NCBI RefSeq assembly: GCF_009797025.1
Contig: NZ_CP047027.1
Span: forward strand, 806,001-870,000
Origin: Cellulophaga sp. L1A9
GTDB taxonomy: Bacteria > Bacteroidota > Bacteroidia > Flavobacteriales > Flavobacteriaceae
DNA: 64,000 nucleotides
Direction: 5' to 3'
Shown here in pieces: positions 47,960 through 58,844 of this stretch (the stretch's first letter is position 1; every line of letters begins with the position of its first letter). The notes beneath the pieces were generated by a model. The model saw only the letters and a list, made by a program, of their open reading frames with translations, did no database searches and had not been told where the DNA came from. The position numbers and the translations under genes were made by a program.

Positions 47960-48844
47960 TTATTTTCTACTTCTATGACGATCGCGCGCCAACAACGTAT
48001 TTTTAAGAAGCATTGCAATCGTCATAGGCCCCACCCCACCTGGAACAGGAGTAATGAAACTCGCTTTTTTACTTACATTCTCAAAATCTACATCTCCTGT
48101 AATATAGTATCCTTTTTCATAAGAATCATCTGCGACCCTTGTAATACCCACATCTATAATTACCGCATCGTCTTTAATCATTTCTGCTTTCAAGAATTTA
48201 GGAACTCCTAATGCAGAAATTACAATATCTGCTTGAGAAATAATTTGAGTAATGTTCTTCGTATGGCTGTGTGTTAAAGTTACCGTTGAATTTCCTGGCC
48301 ACCCTTTTCTTCCCATTAAAATACTCATAGGTCTCCCTACAATATGACTCCTACCAATAACTACGGTATGCTTCCCTTTAGTATCTACATTATAACGTTC
48401 TAAAAGCTCTAATATTCCAAAAGGAGTTGCCGGAATAAACGTACTCATATCTAAAGCCATTTTACCAAAATTCATAGGATGAAAACCATCTACGTCTTTA
48501 TCTGGATCTACAGCCAACAATACCTTTTGAGTATCTATTTGTGGAGGTAATGGCAATTGTACGATAAACCCATCTATATCCTCGTTTTTATTTAATTCTT
48601 CAATCTTATTTAAAAGCTCTAGTTCTGATGTTGTACTTGGCATTCTAACCAAAGTAGATTCAAAACCAACTTTTTCACAAGACCTAACTTTACTACCAAC
48701 ATAAGTTAAACTTGCACCATCACTACCCACTAATATCGCCGCTAAATGAGGTACCTTCTCCCCTTTTTCGCGCATTTTAGCAACCTGAATTGCAATCTCT
48801 TCTTTTATTTCGTTGGATACTTTTTTCCCGTCTAATATTTCCAT
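47960..48844 (-). CDS. folD: methylenetetrahydrofolate dehydrogenase/cyclohydrolase
   Basis: A 294-residue bifunctional enzyme of one-carbon metabolism, oxidising 5,10-methylene-THF and hydrolysing the methenyl form. Diagnostic stretches are LAAILVGSDGASLTYVGSKVRSCEKVGF (catalytic Lys in YVGSK), GFIVQLPLPPQIDTQKVLLAVDPDKDVDGFHPMNFG, VVIGRSHIVGRPMSILM (NADP site) and FITPVPGGVGPMTIAMLL. Length and motifs are standard. It follows ffh on the same strand by 48 bases. Confidence 0.97.
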   Translation of the reverse strand: MEILDGKKVSNEIKEEIAIQVAKMREKGEKVPHLAAILVGSDGASLTYVGSKVRSCEKVGFESTLVRMPSTTSELELLNKIEELNKNEDIDGFIVQLPLPPQIDTQKVLLAVDPDKDVDGFHPMNFGKMALDMSTFIPATPFGILELLERYNVDTKGKHTVVIGRSHIVGRPMSILMGRKGWPGNSTVTLTHSHTKNITQIISQADIVISALGVPKFLKAEMIKDDAVIIDVGITRVADDSYEKGYYITGDVDFENVSKKASFITPVPGGVGPMTIAMLLKNTLLARDRHRSRK

Positions 48845-48892: not shown

Positions 48893-50230
48893 TTATTGCA
48901 TGCCTTTCATAGCACCCATCATTTGCATCATCTTCTTACCGCCACCACCTTGCATCATTTTCATCATTTTACTCATCTGATCAAACTGCTTTAACAATTG
49001 GTTTATTTCTTGAATAGATCTTCCACTACCTTTAGCAATACGTTTTTTTCTACTCGCATCTAATTTTGCAGGCGTTGCTCTTTCAAATGGCGTCATAGAA
49101 TGAATAATAGCTTCTACATGCTTAAAAGCATCATCATCTATATCTAGACCTTTTAATGCTTTTCCTGCACCAGGAATCATCCCCATAAGGTCTTTAATGC
49201 TACCCATTTTCTTAATTTGCTGAATCTGACTTAAAAAGTCATCAAAACCAAACTGATTTTTAGCAATTTTCTTTTGAATTTTACGACTCTCTTCTTCATC
49301 AAACTGCTCTTGCGCTCTTTCTACCAGTGATACAACATCACCCATACCCAAGATACGTTCTGCCATACGTGCAGGATAGAATACATCAATAGCATCCATT
49401 TTCTCACCCGTACCAATAAATTTAATTGGTTTATTTACAACAGACTTAATAGAAATAGCAGCACCACCACGAGTATCTCCATCTAATTTAGTAAGGATAA
49501 CCCCATCAAAATTTAATATATCATTGAAGGCCTTTGCTGTATTTACTGCATCTTGCCCTGTCATAGCATCTACTACAAACAAGGTTTCTTGAGGCTGAAT
49601 TGCTTTGTGAATGTTAGCAATTTCATTCATCATTTCTTCATCTACAGCTAAACGACCAGCAGTATCAATGATCACTACATTATGACCATTTGCTTTTGCA
49701 TATGCGATACCTGCTTTTGAAATTGCCACAGGATCTGTATTCCCTCGGTCAGAAAACACCTCAACACCTATTTGGTCTCCTACTACAAGCAACTGATCAA
49801 CTGCCGCAGGGCGGTAAACATCACAAGCTACTAATAATGGCTTTTTAGTTTTTTTAGTTTTTAGATAACTCGCAAGTTTCCCAGAAAAAGTAGTTTTTCC
49901 AGAACCCTGCAAACCAGACATTAATATTACAGAAGGGTCTCCAGATAAATTAATTCCTTCAACATCACCCCCCATTAACTCAGTAAGCTCATCCTTTACC
50001 AACTTTACCATTAACTGGCCTGGCTGCAACGCTGTTAAAACGTCTTGACCTAGCGCTTTTTCCTTTACCGTATTGGTAAAATCTTTCGCTATTTTAAAAT
50101 TGACATCAGCATCTAGTAAAGCTCGTCGAACCTCTTTTAAAGTTTCTGCAACATTAATTTCTGTGATTTGACCATGCCCTTTTAGAACATGAAGTGCTTT
50201 ATCTAACTTTTCGCTTAAATTATCAAACAT
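48893..50230 (-). CDS. ffh: signal recognition particle protein (SRP54 homologue)
   Basis: A 445-residue GTPase that binds 4.5S RNA and signal sequences for co-translational targeting to the membrane. The N domain begins MFDNLSEKLDKALHVLKGHG. G-domain motifs are LMSGLQGSGKTTFSGKLA, DTAGRLAVD and TKLDGDTRGGAA. The M domain ends in a Met-rich tail (QMSKMMKMMQGGGGKKMMQM). A TAAATTTG -7 box lies 26 bases upstream. It is followed by folD. Confidence 0.98.
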   Translation of the reverse strand: MFDNLSEKLDKALHVLKGHGQITEINVAETLKEVRRALLDADVNFKIAKDFTNTVKEKALGQDVLTALQPGQLMVKLVKDELTELMGGDVEGINLSGDPSVILMSGLQGSGKTTFSGKLASYLKTKKTKKPLLVACDVYRPAAVDQLLVVGDQIGVEVFSDRGNTDPVAISKAGIAYAKANGHNVVIIDTAGRLAVDEEMMNEIANIHKAIQPQETLFVVDAMTGQDAVNTAKAFNDILNFDGVILTKLDGDTRGGAAISIKSVVNKPIKFIGTGEKMDAIDVFYPARMAERILGMGDVVSLVERAQEQFDEEESRKIQKKIAKNQFGFDDFLSQIQQIKKMGSIKDLMGMIPGAGKALKGLDIDDDAFKHVEAIIHSMTPFERATPAKLDASRKKRIAKGSGRSIQEINQLLKQFDQMSKMMKMMQGGGGKKMMQMMGAMKGMQ

Positions 50231-50366: not shown

Positions 50367-52076
50367 TTAGTTACATGTTTTGGTTAAAAGAAGTGTTTCT
50401 TCTCCTCTTTTTATTTTAAATAAATTATCTGCACATTCTATTACAGTCCATTCGCCTTCATAATTAGCTAAGGCCATAGTCAGGTTATTAAATTTCAAGA
50501 CAGCACCAGATAGCTCCCAATTCCCTTCTTCAACCACTACTTCACTGGTATTATACACATGAATATTCTCATTAGAAAAATCAATATCTAGCGCATCAAA
50601 GAAAGTACCATCAAGATTTGAAACTGTCCATCTACAAGATTGTATGACATCATAAATATATGCCTCTTCACAAACTGTACTGAGATCCTCACAATCTCTT
50701 AGCAACACATTTTCGTATATTAACTCGGTTTCGTTGTAAATTTCTATACTTAATTGTGTGTTAGAACTCGCTAAAACTTTCCATCTTTCAGCAATCAACT
50801 CTTGATTTACATTGTAAAACACGATAGAATTATTAACTATTGCCCAAGTGGCATAGGTATCTATCTCAAATAAATCTCCGTTTTCGTCTACAAACTTTAC
50901 AGCTCCGTTTTCTAAAAACTTGATTGTATATAATCCAATACTTGAACTACTAGGAACAGCAAACTTCCATTTACATTCTTCTAATAAAACTTCCAACTCG
51001 TCATTTGAGTTGTTATCAGGTAACTCACAATCTTTTTTAAGGATAATTCTATCGCCATCACTTTCAAAAAGCTTTATTCTACCCGCTTCCAATTCATACA
51101 CAGACCATTCTAGAGAAAAATCTACAAGCTCATAAAATTCTAAGTTCAAGAAAACTCCATCATCATTGGCACTAGTGCTCCAAGTACCTTCAAAAATGTT
51201 CCCTACACTATTATATACTTCTACAGTACCATCTGCTGTAAAATTCATGGTATACGCAAAATATTGTTCTGTTTGATATTGATTGTATCTCTTTACTTCT
51301 TTTACTAAAAAGCCACAGTCTACTAAATAAGCATCTAATTCTTCCTTACTAAAATCATCATCATTATAATCGTCATCATCATCTTCATCACAAGAATCTT
51401 TAGCATTACTTAAAGCTAAGGCTAACTCTTCATTAGAATTTACAGTGATTATTGTTTCATCATATAGTTTTAGGGAAACAGGGAAATTTAAACTTACCAC
51501 ATCATTATCACCTAAATCATTGAAGAAAAACCTCAACTCTTTATCACTTTCTACGGCAACACTTCCTGTTTGCTGGCTATTCGTATCATAGGTAAAAAAG
51601 GTTAATGGATATACAAAATCAATACATTCTATATCATCATCAGCACCATTCTCAATACAGTCATTTGCTAATTCTCGCAAAGCATCTGCATTTGAAATTT
51701 CAATTTCGGTATAATCTGATAAGGTAATTTTTATAGGAAATACAATAGTAAGAAGGTCACTATCATCTTCTAATTGATCAAAAATAGTTTCAATTAATTT
51801 TAAATCTTCGATAGAATCTATCGTTAATTCTAAGCCATTTACCATAACGCTATATGGAAATTGAACCGCTAAACAACTAGAGCCATCTACAATATTATCA
51901 TACGAACCATCTTTCGCAGACGTATCTGTAATTAACTTAGCAGTGCTAGAACTTGCTGTAATTGTTGACTGTTCTTCAGAATCTGGAAGCTCTTCAAATT
52001 CTTCTTGACAAGAAGAAATAAATAATGCACTTACCAATAGGCCTATAAATGCAAAATTTTTAAATACCTTTTTCAT
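50367..52076 (-). CDS. large acidic lipoprotein with 2 + 3 cysteine-bracketed repeat modules
   Basis: 569 residues from the ATG at 52074-52076; a 14-codon upstream extension would spoil the signal peptide. Lipobox FISSC, lipid Cys23. Two related modules at ~68-140 and ~151-229 share an opening C, an FPYS/VYPL strand, an IVFPIKITL/LNFPVSLKL strand and a closing C. A linker of almost only Asp follows (~229-242). Three further modules (~254-350, ~368-462, ~481-568) each start with Cys, carry a TW/NW strand and a W-x-V strand about 22-25 residues later, and end with Cys, a lipocalin-like pattern. It diverges from the ECF sigma gene and carries the same promoter-like motif as the FecR gene, so it is probably a surface-exposed target of that system. 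No family name recognised. Confidence 0.85.
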   Translation of the reverse strand: MKKVFKNFAFIGLLVSALFISSCQEEFEELPDSEEQSTITASSSTAKLITDTSAKDGSYDNIVDGSSCLAVQFPYSVMVNGLELTIDSIEDLKLIETIFDQLEDDSDLLTIVFPIKITLSDYTEIEISNADALRELANDCIENGADDDIECIDFVYPLTFFTYDTNSQQTGSVAVESDKELRFFFNDLGDNDVVSLNFPVSLKLYDETIITVNSNEELALALSNAKDSCDEDDDDDYNDDDFSKEELDAYLVDCGFLVKEVKRYNQYQTEQYFAYTMNFTADGTVEVYNSVGNIFEGTWSTSANDDGVFLNLEFYELVDFSLEWSVYELEAGRIKLFESDGDRIILKKDCELPDNNSNDELEVLLEECKWKFAVPSSSSIGLYTIKFLENGAVKFVDENGDLFEIDTYATWAIVNNSIVFYNVNQELIAERWKVLASSNTQLSIEIYNETELIYENVLLRDCEDLSTVCEEAYIYDVIQSCRWTVSNLDGTFFDALDIDFSNENIHVYNTSEVVVEEGNWELSGAVLKFNNLTMALANYEGEWTVIECADNLFKIKRGEETLLLTKTCN

Positions 52077-52101
52077 AATGATTTGGTTTTCTGTTATTAT
52101 A

Positions 52102-52133
52102 CCATTAAAACAACTCACGTTTAAAAAACCCTA
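52102..52133 (-). promoter_or_regulatory. putative ECF-sigma promoter of the lipoprotein gene
   Basis: Minus strand: TAGGGTTTTT (52133-52124), 12 bases, GTTTTAATGG (52111-52102), then 25 bases to the ATG. The first part (with a preceding G, 11 bases) and the 12-base spacing are identical to the plus-strand site before the FecR gene. Confidence 0.6.
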
Positions 52134-52158
52134 CCAAAACTTTTAATTATTTTTAAAA

Positions 52159-52166
52159 TACCTTTG
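52159..52166 (+). promoter_or_regulatory. TACCTTTG -7 box of the ECF sigma gene
   Basis: An exact TAnnTTTG match 25 bases before the sigma-factor ATG. It suggests that the sigma gene itself is read by the housekeeping polymerase, unlike its anti-sigma and target genes. Confidence 0.5.
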
Positions 52167-52191
52167 AAAAATACTTTTTGATAATTGATTG

Positions 52192-52701
52192 ATGGATACA
52201 CCAAAACAAAACGTTTGTGAGGAGCAAGTTTATAATGAGTTATTTAAAACCAATTCTAAAACGGTCTTTAACTACATATATTATAAATATGGGAATGAAG
52301 AGAAAGCCTATGACGTTGTACAAGAAGCTTTTATAAAACTTTGGGAAAATTGCAAAAAGGTAGCTCCAGAAAAAGCAAAATCGTTTGTATATACGGTTGC
52401 CAATAATTTGTATTTGAATGTCATTAAAGCAGAAAAAGTACGCTTCAAACATGCTAAAGAAACTTTAGAAGTTACCCACGAGTCTCCTGAATTTCTCCTT
52501 GAAGAAAAAGAATTTAAAATAAAGCTTGAGCACGCCTTATCAGATTTACCAGAAAACCAACGCAGCACCTTTTTATTGAATAGGATTGATGGAAAAAGAT
52601 ACAAAGAAATTGCAGAAATGGAAGGTGTGAGTTTAAAAGCCATTGAAAAAAGAATGCATCTAGCACTAAAATCATTACGAGAAAAAATTGACGGAATATA
52701 A
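52192..52701 (+). CDS. ECF-type RNA polymerase sigma factor
   Basis: 169 residues from the ATG at 52192 (MDTPKQNVCEEQVY); a TTG just before it is in frame. Region 2 is VFNYIYYKYGNEEKAYDVVQEAFIKLWENC. Region 4 is ALSDLPENQRSTFLLNRIDGKRYKEIAEMEGVSLKAIEKRMHLALKSLREKI, with the HTH. It would direct polymerase to the anti-sigma/receptor pair and, by motif sharing, to the divergent lipoprotein. The FecR-type anti-sigma gene lies 105 bases downstream, separated by a tandem repeat and a promoter-like element. Confidence 0.94.
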   Translation: MDTPKQNVCEEQVYNELFKTNSKTVFNYIYYKYGNEEKAYDVVQEAFIKLWENCKKVAPEKAKSFVYTVANNLYLNVIKAEKVRFKHAKETLEVTHESPEFLLEEKEFKIKLEHALSDLPENQRSTFLLNRIDGKRYKEIAEMEGVSLKAIEKRMHLALKSLREKIDGI

Positions 52702-52706
52702 TTTTG

Positions 52707-52742
52707 GTTGATAGTTGATAGTTGATAGTTGATAGTTGATAG
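52707..52742. repeat. five tandem copies of GTTGATA
   Basis: Five exact 7-base units (52707-52741) plus one extra G, between the sigma stop codon and the putative ECF promoter of the FecR gene. The perfect identity suggests recent slippage. It could vary in copy number between strains. Confidence 0.95.
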
Positions 52743-52759
52743 AAAATAAAAAAAATAAG

Positions 52760-52791
52760 TAGGGTTTTTACCTCACTAACTGTTATAAGAA
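52760..52791 (+). promoter_or_regulatory. putative ECF-sigma promoter of the FecR/receptor genes
   Basis: TAGGGTTTTT (52760-52769), 12 bases, GTTATAAGAA (52782-52791), then 15 bases to the FecR ATG. It pairs with the minus-strand site at 52102-52133. It lies inside the sigma-to-anti-sigma gap, so the anti-sigma and receptor could be induced separately from the sigma gene. Confidence 0.6.
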
Positions 52792-52806
52792 TATAAAGCA
52801 TAAATT

Positions 52807-53715
52807 ATGCAAGAGAATTACTTAGCCAAATGGCTCAATAATGAATTATCGGACACGGAACTCGAAGCCTTTGAAAAGTCTGACGAGTATACTGCGTATA
52901 AAAAAATAGCAAGTGTATCTAGTACCCTAGAAGCTCCTGAATTTGATGTTGAAAAAGCATTGGCAGAAAGTAAACTAGGACGCACTACTTCTAAAGGGAA
53001 AGTTATAAAGCTTAATCCTTTTAAGAAATTTACAAGTATTGCTGCAGCTATTGTGCTTTTCATTGCTGGAGCCTATTTCTTTATAAATACGAATGAGCAG
53101 ATAGAAACAGCCCTAGCACAAACAGAACTTATTACATTACCTGATGCTTCAGAGGTTGTTTTAAATGCCGATTCAAAAATAGAATACAGCATAAAGAATT
53201 GGGATAAAAAGAGGCATCTTACCCTTAACGGAGAAGCTTATTTTAAAGTTGCCAAAGGGAAAAAATTTACAGTAGAAACTTCTGCAGGAACCATTCAAGT
53301 ATTAGGAACACAATTTAACATTACAAACAGACCTAACTATTTTAAAGTCACTTGTTTTGAAGGTTTAGTAAGTGTTACTCATAAAAATGAAACTATAAAA
53401 TTACCCGCAGGAACTTCATTCCTAGTTCTAAATGATCAGATTATTTCAACAGAAGCACCTAAAACAAATAAACCTTCTTGGATTGACAACGAAAGTACCT
53501 TTACAAGTATTCCATTAACTTTTGTTTTAGCAGAATTAGAACGCCAATACAACATTAGCATTATATCAAATACTATAGATACGAATACTTTATTCACAGG
53601 AACGTTCACTAATAAAAATATAGACTCAGCATTAAAAAGTATTTGTGTTCCAAATAACATAACATATGCACTAGAAGGGAATAAAGTGATTTTACATGCT
53701 AAAAACGCAGAATAG
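52807..53715 (+). CDS. FecR-type anti-sigma factor
   Basis: 302 residues. The N-terminal ~70 residues are cytoplasmic (MQENYLAKWLNNELSDTELEAF, sigma-binding). One membrane helix lies at ~76-93 (FTSIAAAIVLFIAGAYFFI). The periplasmic FecR domain is at ~105-205 (ITLPDASEVVLNADSKIEY, LTLNGEAYFKVAKGKKFTVET, GTQFNI). The C-terminal STN-like DUF4974 segment is at ~230-298 (FTSIPLTFVLAELERQYNISI, FTGTFTNKNIDSAL). It relays the receptor's signal to the sigma factor. Its end overlaps the receptor gene by 20 bases. Confidence 0.95.
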   Translation: MQENYLAKWLNNELSDTELEAFEKSDEYTAYKKIASVSSTLEAPEFDVEKALAESKLGRTTSKGKVIKLNPFKKFTSIAAAIVLFIAGAYFFINTNEQIETALAQTELITLPDASEVVLNADSKIEYSIKNWDKKRHLTLNGEAYFKVAKGKKFTVETSAGTIQVLGTQFNITNRPNYFKVTCFEGLVSVTHKNETIKLPAGTSFLVLNDQIISTEAPKTNKPSWIDNESTFTSIPLTFVLAELERQYNISIISNTIDTNTLFTGTFTNKNIDSALKSICVPNNITYALEGNKVILHAKNAE

Positions 53716-56251
53716 TACCTTAACTCTCTTTTTAATTGCTGTAGTATTCTTCTCTTCCTTAAGTATTTCAGGGCAAGAAGATAAGGCTACACAGATTTCA
53801 CTTAGAAGCTATTTAAATCAAATAGAAAAAAACTTTTCTGTAAAATTTTCATTTGCAGATAACACTATTAATAGCATTTTAATTCATTCTCAAGAATTTA
53901 ATGAGCTGGAGGCTGCCATTCAGTACATTGAAACAGAAACACCTTTAGATTTAAAAAAAATAGATGCCCGATACTATACTATTTCTAAAAGTATGCTTTC
54001 TATTTGCGCTAAAGTTTTAGATAATTTTGAGCAAAACACCTTGCGTAATGCGAGCATTAAAGTTTTAGAACAAGGCATTTCTACCATTACTGACGACAGC
54101 GGAAATTTCTATTTAAACAACATTCCTAAGGCATCCATTATTGAAATTAGACATGTTGGTTTCAAACCCTTATTCATTAAGGCAGAAGAACTAGAATACC
54201 GCGAAGTTTGCAAGACCCTTTTGTTGGCTCAAAATATTCAACAATTAGAAGAAGTTATTATCTATAAATTTTTAACCACTGGATTAGAAAAACAAGATGA
54301 CGCGAGTATTGTTTTGAACACTGATGATTTCGGGATTCTCCCAGGTCTAATAGAGCCAGATGTTTTACAAACCATACAAGCACTACCCGGAATAAAGAGT
54401 ATAGATGAAACGGTTTCTGATATTAATGTTCGCGGCGGTACTAACGACCAAAATTTGATACTTTGGGAAGGTATAAAAATGTATCAATCCGGGCATTTCT
54501 TTGGCTTGATATCTGCTTTTAACCCGTACCTAACAGATAAAGTTACACTTATAAAAAACGGTTCAAGTGCTGCTTTTGGAGATGGCGTAAGTAGTATTTT
54601 AGATATGCGCACAAAGAACACCATTACCAACGAACTATATGGTGGCGCAGGAATTAACCTATTAAGTGGTGATGCTTACGGACAAATCCCCCTCAAAGAG
54701 AATCTAGCATTTCAGTTTTCAGGGAGACGCTCCATTACAGATCTTTTAAATACACCTACATACAACCAGTTTTACGAAAGAGCTTTTCAAGACACCGAAA
54801 TTAGAGGCAATGAACCTAACCAGGAAAATATCGTTAGACATGAAGACTTCTATTTTTATGATTTTACGGGGAAATTATTATATGACATTTCCCAGAAACA
54901 TAAAGCGCGTGTCAGTTTTATCGCCATAAATAACTTATTAGAATACACCGCATTAAACACCAATACTACAGAAACGACCAATAGTAAATTAATGCAGACT
55001 AACTTTTCTATAGGCGGTTACCTAAAAAGCACATGGAGTTCTAATTTCTCCACGCAATTAAATGCTTATTACACTTCTTATCATCTAGATTCAGAAAATT
55101 TTACTTCTGAAAACGACCAACAATTACTTCAAAATAACGAAGTTTTAGAAACTGCCGTTCAGCTAGAGTCTAACTACAATTTCTCTGAGCTATTAGCTTG
55201 GGAAAATGGATACGAGTTTAAAGAAGTAGGCATTATAAACTTAACGAATGTAACGCAACCCCCGTTCCGAAGTAATGTAAAAGGGGTTATTAGAACGCAC
55301 GCTTTATTTTCAGAACTTACCTACGCCTCTGAAAATGAAAAACTTTGGGCTAGAGCGGGTGTACGTGCAAACTACATTGAAAATTTAGCAACCTTTGAAA
55401 AACTCATTCTAGAACCACGTTTAAACGTAAACTATAAAGTAGCCCGTAATTTTAAGGTTGAGCTGCAAGGTGAGTTTAAGAATCAGACCACAAACCAAAT
55501 CATTGATTTGAAACAAAATTTTCTAGGAATTGAAAAAAGAAGATGGGTTTTATCTAATGAAGAAGATTTACCTATTACCCGAAGTAAACAAGTTTCCTTG
55601 GGCTTAAATTATGACAAAAACAAAATCTATATTGGCTTAGAAGGGTTTTATAAATATGTAAATGGCATTAGCACTACCACACAAGGTTTTCAGAATGAAG
55701 ATCAATTTAATGGAGAAATTGGGGAATATGCCGCTAGGGGATTTGAATTTTTAATTAACCAAAAAACAAAAAACCTTAGTAACTGGTTGACCTATACGTA
55801 TAATAAAAATGATTACACATTTGATTTGTTAAGTCCCACTACATTTCCTAATAATTTAGACATTAGACACACTATCACTTTTGCAAGCACTTATACCTAT
55901 CAGAATCTAAAATTAGGTCTTGGTCTTAATTACAGAACAGGAAGGCCGTATACGAAGCCACAAGAAGACGGCAACCCTATAAACACCTTTGTTTTTCCGA
56001 GTACTATAAATTACGAAGACGCTAATAACAGTAGATTACCAGAATACCTAAGAGTAGATGCATCTGCTATTTATGATTTTAAAATTAATCGAAATATAAA
56101 AGCATCGGTTGGCACATCGCTATTAAATTTGTTAGACCATAAAAATATTTTGAATAGATATTACCGATTGAATGACCAAGATGAAATAGAAACCATCGAA
56201 AGTGTTTCGTTAGGGATTACCCCAAACTTTAGCTTTCGAATGTTCTTTTAA
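53696..56251 (+). CDS. STN-domain TonB-dependent outer-membrane transducer
   Basis: 851 residues. A signal peptide (1-~26, ending SISG) is followed by a secretin/TonB N-terminal STN signalling domain (~33-98, ISLRSYLNQIEKNFSVKFSF). A carboxypeptidase-like beta-sandwich comes next (~104-185, GISTITDDSGNFYLNNIP). The plug is DVLQTIQALPGIKSIDETVSDINVRGG, with IKNGSSAAFGDGVSSILDMRT at its end. The beta-barrel ends in aromatic FSFRMFF. No SusD-like partner is encoded next to it. The ligand is unknown. It overlaps fecR by 20 bases, and its stop directly abuts the stop of the convergent MtfA-like gene. Confidence 0.94.
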   Translation: MLKTQNSTLTLFLIAVVFFSSLSISGQEDKATQISLRSYLNQIEKNFSVKFSFADNTINSILIHSQEFNELEAAIQYIETETPLDLKKIDARYYTISKSMLSICAKVLDNFEQNTLRNASIKVLEQGISTITDDSGNFYLNNIPKASIIEIRHVGFKPLFIKAEELEYREVCKTLLLAQNIQQLEEVIIYKFLTTGLEKQDDASIVLNTDDFGILPGLIEPDVLQTIQALPGIKSIDETVSDINVRGGTNDQNLILWEGIKMYQSGHFFGLISAFNPYLTDKVTLIKNGSSAAFGDGVSSILDMRTKNTITNELYGGAGINLLSGDAYGQIPLKENLAFQFSGRRSITDLLNTPTYNQFYERAFQDTEIRGNEPNQENIVRHEDFYFYDFTGKLLYDISQKHKARVSFIAINNLLEYTALNTNTTETTNSKLMQTNFSIGGYLKSTWSSNFSTQLNAYYTSYHLDSENFTSENDQQLLQNNEVLETAVQLESNYNFSELLAWENGYEFKEVGIINLTNVTQPPFRSNVKGVIRTHALFSELTYASENEKLWARAGVRANYIENLATFEKLILEPRLNVNYKVARNFKVELQGEFKNQTTNQIIDLKQNFLGIEKRRWVLSNEEDLPITRSKQVSLGLNYDKNKIYIGLEGFYKYVNGISTTTQGFQNEDQFNGEIGEYAARGFEFLINQKTKNLSNWLTYTYNKNDYTFDLLSPTTFPNNLDIRHTITFASTYTYQNLKLGLGLNYRTGRPYTKPQEDGNPINTFVFPSTINYEDANNSRLPEYLRVDASAIYDFKINRNIKASVGTSLLNLLDHKNILNRYYRLNDQDEIETIESVSLGITPNFSFRMFF

Positions 56252-57043: not shown

Positions 57044-58822
57044 CTACATACGCTCAGGAACTTCTATTCCTAACAATTTAAATGAAGATTGAATAACCTC
57101 ACTCACTTTTTTAGACAATTGCACTCTGAATGCTTTCTTATTTTCATCTTCTTCTCCTAAGATAGATACATTTTGGTAGAATGAGTTAAACTCTTTTACC
57201 AAGTCATACGTATAATTCGCTATTAAAGCCGGACTGTAATTAGCGGCCGCTAACTGAATAGCTTCAGGATACCCCTGTAGTTGTTTTATTAATTCTTTCT
57301 CCTTTTCATGAAGCGCTGTTAACCCATCAAAACCATTCAAACTTAACTCTTCTGCTTTACGTAGAATAGATTGAATTCTTGCATAGGTATACTGTATAAA
57401 CGGCCCCGTATTTCCCTGAAAATCTACAGATTCTTCAGGATTAAATAAGATTCGTTTTTTAGGATCTACTTTTAAAATGTAATATTTTAAAGCACCTAAG
57501 CCAATCATTTTATATAAACTTTGCTTTTCAGCATCAGAATAATCTTCTAGCTTTCCTAATTCTTGAGAAATTTCACCTGCAGTAGTCGTCATATCTTGCA
57601 TTAAATCATCTGCATCTACAACTGTACCTTCTCTACTCTTCATTTTTCCGCTTGGTAAATCTACCATCCCATAACTTAAATGGAATAAATTTTCTGACCA
57701 AGAGAAACCTAATTTCTTTAAGATTAAAAACAATACTTTAAAATGATAATCTTGTTCATTCCCTACGGTATACACCATACCACTCACCTCAGGATGATCT
57801 TTTACACGCTGTATAGCAGTACCTATATCCTGAGTCATATACACTGCAGTACCATCAGAACGCAATACAATCTTCTCATCTAGACCTTCATCTGTCAAAT
57901 CTATCCAAACGCTACCATCGTCTTTTTTAAAGAAAACACCTTTTTCTAAACCAGCTGCAACAACATCTTTTCCTAATAAATAGGTATCACTCTCATAATA
58001 TAAGGTATCAAAATCTACTCCTAAATTCTTATAAGTAACTTCAAAACCAGCATAAACCCATTGGTTCATAGTCTTCCAAAGTGTAACCACTTCTTCATCT
58101 CCTGCCTCCCACTTTAAAAGCATTTGTTGTGCTTCTAATAATATTGGCGCTTGTTTTTCTGCAGCTTCTTTAGCTAAACCACCCGCTATTAAATTGGCAA
58201 TTTCTTCTTTGTATGCTTTATCAAAAGCTACATAGTAATTACCAACCAACTTATCCCCCTTTAAACCAGTACTTTCAGGAGTTTCCCCTTTTCCAAACTT
58301 CTGCCAAGCCAACATACTTTTACAAATATGGATCCCTCGGTCATTAATAATTTGGGTTTTGTATACTTTTTTACCTGAGGCTTTTAATATTTCCGCAACG
58401 GAATAACCTAATAAATTATTTCTGATATGCCCTAAATGCAATGGCTTGTTTGTGTTTGGTGATGAATATTCTACCATCACAGCATTTGCTGTATCCGGAG
58501 CTACATGACCAAAAGTTACATTTGCATCAATGGCTTTAAAATCTGCCAAGTAATATGCATCACTAATCACAAGATTTAAGAACCCTTTGATGACATTAAA
58601 CCCAGTAACTTCAGCAACCTCTTCTACCAAATAAGCACCAATTTCGTTACCAATTTGTACCGGATTGCCTTTTACAACACGTAGCATTGGAAACACAACG
58701 ATAGTGATATCTCCTTCAAAATCTTTGCGTGTTGGTTGAAATTCAACCGATGGTAATTCTGCTTTAAATAATGTTGAAACCGCTTCTTTAACCTTGGTTT
58801 CTAATACGTTCTGGATATTCAT
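57044..58822 (-). CDS. argS: arginyl-tRNA synthetase
   Basis: A 592-residue class I synthetase charging tRNA-Arg. The start is the ATG at 58820-58822 (MNIQNVLETKV); a TTG six codons upstream is in frame but unneeded. The HIGH-type motif is NKPLHLGHIRNN at about residue 128. The KMSKS region appears as PSGKMKSREGTVV. The C-terminal anticodon-binding DALR domain ends SSFKLLGIEVPERM. A TAGTTTTG -7 box lies 22 bases upstream. The motifs and length are standard. Confidence 0.98.
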   Translation of the reverse strand: MNIQNVLETKVKEAVSTLFKAELPSVEFQPTRKDFEGDITIVVFPMLRVVKGNPVQIGNEIGAYLVEEVAEVTGFNVIKGFLNLVISDAYYLADFKAIDANVTFGHVAPDTANAVMVEYSSPNTNKPLHLGHIRNNLLGYSVAEILKASGKKVYKTQIINDRGIHICKSMLAWQKFGKGETPESTGLKGDKLVGNYYVAFDKAYKEEIANLIAGGLAKEAAEKQAPILLEAQQMLLKWEAGDEEVVTLWKTMNQWVYAGFEVTYKNLGVDFDTLYYESDTYLLGKDVVAAGLEKGVFFKKDDGSVWIDLTDEGLDEKIVLRSDGTAVYMTQDIGTAIQRVKDHPEVSGMVYTVGNEQDYHFKVLFLILKKLGFSWSENLFHLSYGMVDLPSGKMKSREGTVVDADDLMQDMTTTAGEISQELGKLEDYSDAEKQSLYKMIGLGALKYYILKVDPKKRILFNPEESVDFQGNTGPFIQYTYARIQSILRKAEELSLNGFDGLTALHEKEKELIKQLQGYPEAIQLAAANYSPALIANYTYDLVKEFNSFYQNVSILGEEDENKKAFRVQLSKKVSEVIQSSFKLLGIEVPERM

Positions 58823-58844
58823 GATTATTTGACTTATCAATTTG

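Follow-up and report, generated by a model that had tools for sequence, protein, structure and literature searches.

The window analysed here, 64,000 nucleotides (nt) of the genome of Cellulophaga sp. L1A9 (contig NZ_CP047027.1, positions 806,001 to 870,000), contains a locus at which the gene for a surface lipoprotein lies head-to-head with three genes for an extracytoplasmic function (ECF) sigma factor, a FecR anti-sigma factor and a TonB-dependent transducer. The lipoprotein gene (569 amino acids (aa); 50367..52076, minus strand) is an open reading frame (ORF) with a homologue in the same place at 68 of 70 testable loci of the Flavobacteriaceae. On the plus strand follow the sigma gene (169 aa; 52192..52701), which matches Pfam Sigma70_r2 and Sigma70_r4_2 above cut-off and has as its top NCBIfam model TIGR02985, at 113.5 bits under a cut-off of 126.4; the fecR gene (302 aa; 52807..53715), with Pfam FecR and FecR_C above cut-off and, by eye, a single hydrophobic segment at about residues 75-93; and the transducer gene (851 aa; 53696..56251), assigned by Pfam CarbopepD_reg_2 and Plug and by its predicted structure. 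An ECF sigma factor, an adjoining FecR anti-sigma factor and a TonB-dependent receptor with plug and barrel are among the components by which a FecI/FecR/FecA-type system is recognised, and all three are present. We consider it likely, from sequence comparison, that the locus encodes a cell-surface signalling module of this type with an envelope or lipoprotein output.

A two-part motif, GTAGGGTTTTT-N12-GTTWTAA, occurs at exactly two sites in the 64-kb window and at none in 100 dinucleotide shuffles of it. The first site (52105..52134, minus strand, ending in GTTTTAA) is the predicted sigma-ECF promoter of the lipoprotein gene, and the second (52759..52788, plus strand, ending in GTTATAA) that of the fecR-transducer operon. 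The sigma gene is instead preceded by TACCTTTG, a housekeeping-type TAnnTTTG box (52159..52166, plus strand). A preliminary description of this DNA, made from its letters, had given the same ORFs and strands, the length of the lipoprotein, both exact promoters and the box before the sigma gene, and all of these were recovered; it had also proposed a genome-wide search for the motif, which finds one further exact site outside the window, 48 nt upstream of the gene for a secreted 144-aa protein. Between the end of the sigma gene and the fecR promoter lie five tandem copies of TTGATAG (52708-52742).

Both the module and its motif are conserved within the genus. Among 18 Cellulophaga genomes, the transducer has a full-length ortholog in 16 (56-100% identity) and lacks one in two, G003 and G009. 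A lipoprotein homologue adjoins the triad at 14 of the 15 ortholog loci other than the window, and fecR lies next to the sigma gene in 15 of the 16 loci, window included. The exception is G011 (locus L182), where a three-gene insertion parts sigma and lipoprotein genes from fecR and transducer and both sigma promoters survive, one on either side; one inserted gene encodes 422 aa and is Gfo/Idh-like by reading. A relaxed form of the motif (GTAGGGTWTTT-N10-TTGTTWY, at most one mismatch) has 79 sites; reversing the motif leaves 15 matches and lengthening its spacer by one base leaves 8. The siteless genomes are exactly G003 and G009, so that the motif is found in 16 of 16 genomes with a transducer ortholog and in neither of the two without. 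Thirty-one of the 79 sites are the triad's own promoters and 48 lie away from it, 10 before the small secreted protein and 38 elsewhere. The motif upstream of fecR has the right spacer at 15 of 16 genus loci (in G016 it is one base longer), and that upstream of the lipoprotein is present at all 16, with at most three mismatches to the stricter form.

The same arrangement extends across the family. At least 572 relatives were recovered from named genomes, and the best 80 were taken as family loci; 70 of these have at least 2500 nt upstream of fecR and could be tested for the lipoprotein, and two of the remaining ten still showed it. A divergent lipoprotein homologue was found at 68 of the 70 testable loci, with the sigma gene between lipoprotein and fecR in all 68, and the order lipoprotein, sigma, fecR, transducer is kept in 68 of the 70. 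Upstream of fecR, the motif with at most three mismatches is present at 77 of 78 loci (two of the 80 had too little DNA for fecR), and one shuffle per locus never gave fewer than four mismatches. Each of the 70 lipoproteins found is likewise preceded by it, 64 directly and six (L199, L225, L231, L234, L259 and L262) past an ATG called too early. Box-to-box spacing is fixed and the distance to the start codon near-constant in genus and family loci alike, and the TAnnTTTG box precedes the sigma gene at 66 of 70 family loci, a count made with no control. At L254, in a metagenome-assembled genome of Robiginitalea, sigma gene, lipoprotein and motif are all missing near a short fecR ORF, and at L187 the motif precedes fecR with no sigma or lipoprotein gene in the available stretch, beyond which both may sit. 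L187 also contains a 422-aa gene that by eye resembles the gene in the G011 insertion. Common control of fecR-transducer and the divergent lipoprotein by a single sigma factor, as proposed in the preliminary description, is thus supported by the comparison of loci suggested there, in that motif and lipoprotein stay with the triad across genus and family.

Presence of the motif also tracks the triad at genome level. Across the 199 family genomes of at least 95% completeness, 38 of the 40 with a transducer ortholog of at least 53% identity contain an exact motif, compared with 17 of the 159 others (Fisher p 4e-25, in counts that include the triad's own sites); the 40 comprise 39 full-length orthologs and the partial one of G194, and G166, G213 and G132, at 50-51% identity, are counted among the 159. 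There are 125 exact sites in the 199 genomes versus 8 for the reversed motif. At 20 distant loci picked by hand (transducer 43-48% identity; L424 among them is probably the L262 locus), sigma gene, fecR and a divergent lipoprotein homologue are present in all 20 (E <= 1e-3, 25-38% identity). Before fecR, 18 of the 20 have GTAGGG/A correctly spaced from a TGT[TC] -10 box (shuffle rate 0.002), the -10 box being TGTCT in 11 of those 18, and a slightly looser form precedes the lipoprotein in 14 of the 20, again with no control. At L434 and L435 the fecR gene is preceded by ATAGGG, and these two did not pass the GTAGG test.

Paralogous triads also bear on what the motif is. Six Cellulophaga loci carry a further triad (38-43% transducer identity), each with its own divergent lipoprotein. 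Group A (G000, G002, G003 and G010) has TCAGGAGTTTT-N10-TTGTTWTA before fecR and lipoprotein, the lipoprotein promoter of G003 being degenerate, and group B (G016 and G017; L054, L055, L075 and L076) has GTAGGG...GTGTCYTA before both genes. Compared with the main motif, group A is therefore changed in the -35 box and group B in the -10 box. In an alignment of the sigma factors, the helix GVSxKAIEKRM, which we take to be the part of region 4.2 that reads the -35 box, is kept in group B as SVKAVEKRM (two sequences) and reads GVTRKVVEYRI in group A (one sequence, G010). Because the paralogs keep their own lipoproteins and have matched promoter pairs of their own, the motif is best understood as a sigma promoter and the lipoprotein as part of the module; the paralog pairs and the change in region 4.2 argue strongly that the two-part motif is a sigma-dependent promoter. 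The group A motif is confined to the four genomes that carry a group A triad, the control giving no matches, and it also precedes a 48-50-aa hydrophobic protein by the transducer 3' end and a 45-aa peptide. In G016 and G017 the promoter of the small secreted protein carries GTGTCTAA as its -10, of group B type, and it looks as if this target has been handed over to paralog B. The group A triads lie at L056-L059 (G000:C1:1655000-1667000 and relatives). A more remote paralog, L060 (24% transducer identity), has a divergent neighbour with no match to the lipoprotein and, by eye, no shared motif.

The sites away from the triad point to a wider set of targets. Of the 125 exact family sites, 40 were chosen as lying away from the transducer and read for their products, and 31 of them fall into four classes: the secreted protein, two microproteins and a small RNA (sRNA). 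The 144-aa secreted protein (G000:2280690) has orthologs in 12 of the 18 genus genomes, with the main motif before 10 and the group B type before two, and its class also occurs outside the genus, at L330. A single-span protein of 55-59 aa (MDVINEII...FGY and relatives) is present in 13 genus genomes, in the window's genome at C1:4868681, and at 12 of the 40 family sites, where some spacers read GGCCCGATA or near variants; its members at L155 and L179 were read by eye. A second such protein, of 27-46 aa (MITFF...), is found in seven genus genomes and at four of the 40 sites, the single-span call for these proteins being based on the hydropathy of five examples. At its family sites this second protein adjoins, by reading, an FKBP-type gene. 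Further lipoproteins stand behind the motif, for example at L156, L168, L173 and L178, and the modules of the L178 protein are homologous to the window lipoprotein. We saw no transport, enzyme or SusD gene in the triad and none that recurs behind the motif. We predict, by motif alone, that the microproteins, secreted protein, lipoproteins and sRNA are members of one regulon; the preliminary description had the sigma factor probably controlling the lipoprotein, which is supported, and missed this wider regulon, sRNA included. In two genera (L293 and L327), an open-ended ORF for a secreted protein of at least 780 aa begins 29 and 59 nt after the motif; its start is sorbosone-dehydrogenase-like by reading.

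The sRNA accounts for 14 of the 40 sites, which have no recognisable ORF and share conserved sequence on the 5' side (similar to AAATTGCTATGAAAAAG), the core TTCATGTGTTTAGGTTGGTTTT(T)GAT and a hairpin of terminator type. A covariance model of its 3' part (R1, 16 sequences) gave strong matches in 37 of the 199 family genomes, comprising 34 of the 40 with an ortholog and 3 of the 159 others (p 1e-28), at a cut of 49 bits that was set post hoc from a gap in the scores, the next best being 42.7 bits. Matches at E <= 0.001 of any strength occur in 67 of the 199 genomes, and the weaker ones were treated as background terminators without checking each. With the model-building genomes left out, the sRNA is present in 18 of 24 genomes with an ortholog and again 3 of 159 others (p 5e-17); the three are G166, which has a 50% ortholog, G211 and G047. 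At all 30 sRNA loci fetched out of these 37, 16 of them from genomes outside the R1 building set, the motif lies upstream with at most three mismatches (none at 16 loci, one at 10, two at three, three at one), and one shuffle of each gave at least four. The hairpin of every one of the 30 exceeds letter-shuffled sequences in stability (z < -2), a result favoured by cutting the stretch at the best stem. A stem is present in each locus, and because 26 distinct stem sequences occur among the 30, it is kept while its letters vary.

Neither the window nor the 14 sRNA loci reach the gathering score of any Rfam 15 family; by E-value, four matches were found in those loci, all below gathering scores, and one of them, BTnc049 at L326 646-744, overlaps the sRNA with 28.5 bits (gathering score 81.9, E 0.59). 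The antisense of a 15-mer of the core, searched in 10 genomes with at most one mismatch, gave 29 matches, 8 of them the sRNA itself, and the reversed pattern gave 19. Four of the matches lie 3-8 nt before an ATG (L404, L406, L407 and L409), and because each was seen in one genome only, we claim no target. The transcript was also considered as the message of a conserved short peptide (MCLGWF...) and rejected as such, the T-run after the core having 4, 5, 6 or 7 T and all three frames being used; the 30 loci would encode 21 distinct peptides, and the start at L365 differs. A six-codon start may be common to most of the loci. Members with a GTTTAGGTTGGTTTT-type core lie at L291, L297, L301-L304, L307, L311, L312, L316, L319, L322, L326, L329 and L351-L380, and at L301 the sequence GTGTTTAGGTTGGT recurs about 90 nt past the core, with a hairpin and T-run of its own behind it.

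Predicted structures help to place the two outer-membrane components. The lipoprotein has a signal peptide, a lipobox (ISSC, residues 20-23) and an acidic export-type signal, QEEFEE, and its N-terminus fits the published surface-export signal for lipoproteins. Its model, compared with the Protein Data Bank, consists of two alpha/beta modules (about residues 60-230, described from the whole-chain model) and three lipocalin-like modules (about 240-569). It matched nothing in Pfam or NCBIfam. The preliminary description had called it a five-module surface lipoprotein that is not a SusD-type binder, and had suggested surface display as a possible role: the five modules and surface display agree with these features, and the lack of a Pfam or NCBIfam match and the lipocalin-like modules support the point on SusD. 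The transducer is modelled as an N-terminal alpha/beta domain, a CarboxypepD-like domain, a plug and a barrel, and the strand-helix order of residues 33-98 suits a signalling domain. The FecR_C profile, presumably related to the receptor signalling domain, matches seven of 15 transducer orthologs and paralogs. Foldseek returned 275 matches to the transducer at E <= 0.001, the best 50 all being TonB-type receptors, with FoxA (6i97) and FpvA (2iah; 2o5p, described as full length) at the top. A shorter receptor (about 770-790 aa) that probably lacks the signalling domain is also encoded in many family genomes, for example at G062:C1:3021413-3023416; it matches the transducer from about residue 180 onward, with 47-52% identity.

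Altogether, gene order, promoter conservation, co-occurrence, co-variation of promoters and sigma factors in paralogs, and the regulon drawn from the motif, all in silico, lead us to the following model. The sigma gene would be transcribed from its housekeeping promoter and the sigma protein held by FecR. Binding of a ligand to the TonB-dependent transducer would cause its periplasmic N-terminal domain to act on the C-terminus of FecR and free the sigma factor, a route from transducer through FecR to sigma that we infer from known FecR systems. The freed sigma factor would read the GTAGGGTWTTT-N10-TTGTTWY promoters before fecR-transducer, as feedback, and before the surface lipoprotein, as well as those of scattered genes for single-span microproteins, the secreted protein of about 144 aa and other lipoproteins; in most ortholog-bearing relatives outside Cellulophaga, it would also read the sRNA that ends in an intrinsic terminator. 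Because the constant partner is a lipocalin-like lipoprotein, the other targets are membrane or secreted proteins and an sRNA, and no uptake genes recur, we suggest, as a reading whose chances we put just short of even, that the output adjusts the outer envelope, through the handling of lipoproteins and hydrophobic ligands and with an sRNA arm, rather than serving nutrient import. More tentatively still, we speculate that the module is a Flavobacteriaceae counterpart of the sigma-E envelope response, in which a TonB-receptor/FecR sensor of envelope state sets lipocalin-like lipoproteins, microproteins and an sRNA tuning outer-membrane genes, and that the whole module, in one case including a microprotein, is copied as a single block whose promoter specificity then shifts by one half of the promoter at a time.

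Several points weigh against this model. The transducer has no Pfam STN match, and its structural model is of moderate confidence (mean predicted local distance difference test score, pLDDT, 67). Seventeen genomes lacking a close ortholog nevertheless carry the exact motif; 11 of them have a full-length transducer relative of 41-51% identity, three a weaker or shorter match and three none at threshold. The p-values given above overstate independence, the genomes being related. Some motif sites are intragenic or have no clear product, and the promoter and regulon assignments are computational predictions. The sRNA was not found in Cellulophaga, and because the best R1 match there, at 34.6 bits, falls within the range taken as background, it appears to be lacking in the window's own genome; nor did the antisense 15-mer search of 10 genomes give a clear sRNA target. 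Finally, the envelope role is read solely from the types of product.

Lipocalin-like folds are often small-ligand binders, and the module might accordingly serve nutrient or cofactor import, with the lipoprotein as the transducer's surface lid or capture partner, as in BtuG-BtuB, and the sigma factor inducing the pair on substrate. The nearly constant pairing of receptor and surface lipoprotein fits this alternative, as does the presence of BtuB1-BtuG1 (8blw) among the Foldseek matches of the transducer; however, no BtuG was among the lipoprotein structural matches listed, no transport, enzyme or SusD gene was noticed in the triad or its recurrent targets, and the motif also precedes microproteins and the sRNA at unlinked sites, making import, in our judgement, less likely than envelope adjustment. 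TonB receptors are also common receptors of phages and bacteriocins, and the module could respond to attack by these or by the type VI secretion system, shielding or altering the surface. A Bacteroidales ECF/anti-sigma pair with a barrel has been tied to a toxin-induced and partly protective response (PMC9308784), but the present locus lies among housekeeping genes of conserved synteny (by reading, ffh, folD and argS) rather than in a variable region, its recurrent products are not recognised as defence proteins, and the only PADLOC match of the five locus proteins, at 14.5 bits (E 0.005), is not a noteworthy defence-family match, so that the role in defence raised in the preliminary description finds no support and we regard a response to attack as improbable. 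That the motif is the operator of an ordinary DNA-binding regulator co-controlling the divergent genes is suggested by its position at two such genes and is hardly credible in view of the fixed gap between the boxes, a distance to the start codon that barely varies, the loss of matches on a one-base spacer shift (8 versus 79), the separate variation of -35 and -10 between paralogs, the changed -35 going with a changed sigma region 4.2, and the way in which the motif tracks the triad.

To our knowledge, ECF/FecR systems are abundant in Bacteroidota and few of their regulons are known. Our proposed sigma-promoter module resembles the FecI-FecR-FecA, Fox and Fpv systems of Proteobacteria in its ECF sigma factor, FecR-type anti-sigma factor and TonB transducer with an N-terminal domain, but no uptake operon, the customary though not strictly defining output of such systems, was seen here, and the output, to judge by motif and by reading, consists of a surface lipoprotein, microproteins, a secreted protein and, in many genera, an sRNA. 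Some SusC/SusD systems are likewise under ECF/FecR control and combine a TonB barrel with a surface lipoprotein, whereas the lipoprotein here is lipocalin-like, divergent and outside the receptor operon. The RpoE (sigma-E) envelope response uses the sRNAs MicA and RybB, which repress mRNAs of outer-membrane proteins, and shares with the present module, as judged by motif, an ECF sigma factor behind a terminator-ended sRNA and envelope genes; in contrast to that response, with its RseA-type anti-sigma factor released by DegS and RseP, the anti-sigma factor here is, by Pfam, a FecR and is paired with a transducer, and no sRNA of this kind was found in Cellulophaga. The Dma/Das and EcfO-type pairs of Bacteroides are further Bacteroidota ECF/anti-sigma systems that reach the outer membrane. 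Such systems are linked to vesiculation (PMC13088901) or to a toxin-induced envelope response in which the toxin induces NigD-type lipoproteins (PMC9308784); their anti-sigma factor spans to an outer-membrane barrel, whereas FecR (302 aa) and transducer (851 aa) are separate proteins here, with no fusion of anti-sigma factor and barrel. Flavobacterium psychrophilum offers comparable flavobacterial sigma regulons (SM4-SM6) and an sRNA, Rfp18: SM6 has a CGT -10 box and type IX secretion system genes, and Rfp18 affects protease mRNAs and pairs via its third stem-loop (PMC9723704). GTAGGG is absent from the main text of that paper, and the portion available of a Zobellia expression study (PMC5613140) does not treat this locus. 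Among the papers listed by a search that covered few subscription papers, we found no description of the regulon and no occurrence of GTAGGG. FecR-type surface signalling as such is already known; what appears to be new is the set of outputs, together with the sRNA arm and a lipoprotein module that duplicates.

A single comparative motif provides a regulon that can be tested in dozens of marine genera, and gives a candidate sRNA family and two microprotein families a proposed regulator. Natural controls are at hand in the genus genomes that lack both triad and motif and in the paralogs with re-tuned promoters, which supply sigma-promoter pairs differing in one box at a time; in one of these pairs the recognition helix of the sigma factor is visibly altered too. 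Our results also suggest that a TonB-type sensor could govern the state of the envelope rather than uptake.

The genes surrounding the module were named by reading of the sequence. On the lipoprotein side lie ffh, of the signal recognition particle (48893..50230), and folD (47960..48844); on the transducer side lie a 258-aa gene and argS (57044..58840). At some of the distant loci (L424, L427 and L430) ffh still adjoins the lipoprotein. At others (L426, L429, L431-L441 and L443) a second lipoprotein-like protein of about 250-280 aa follows the lipoprotein on the same strand, and many of these loci add a secreted protein of about 195 aa, one of 150 aa, or both.

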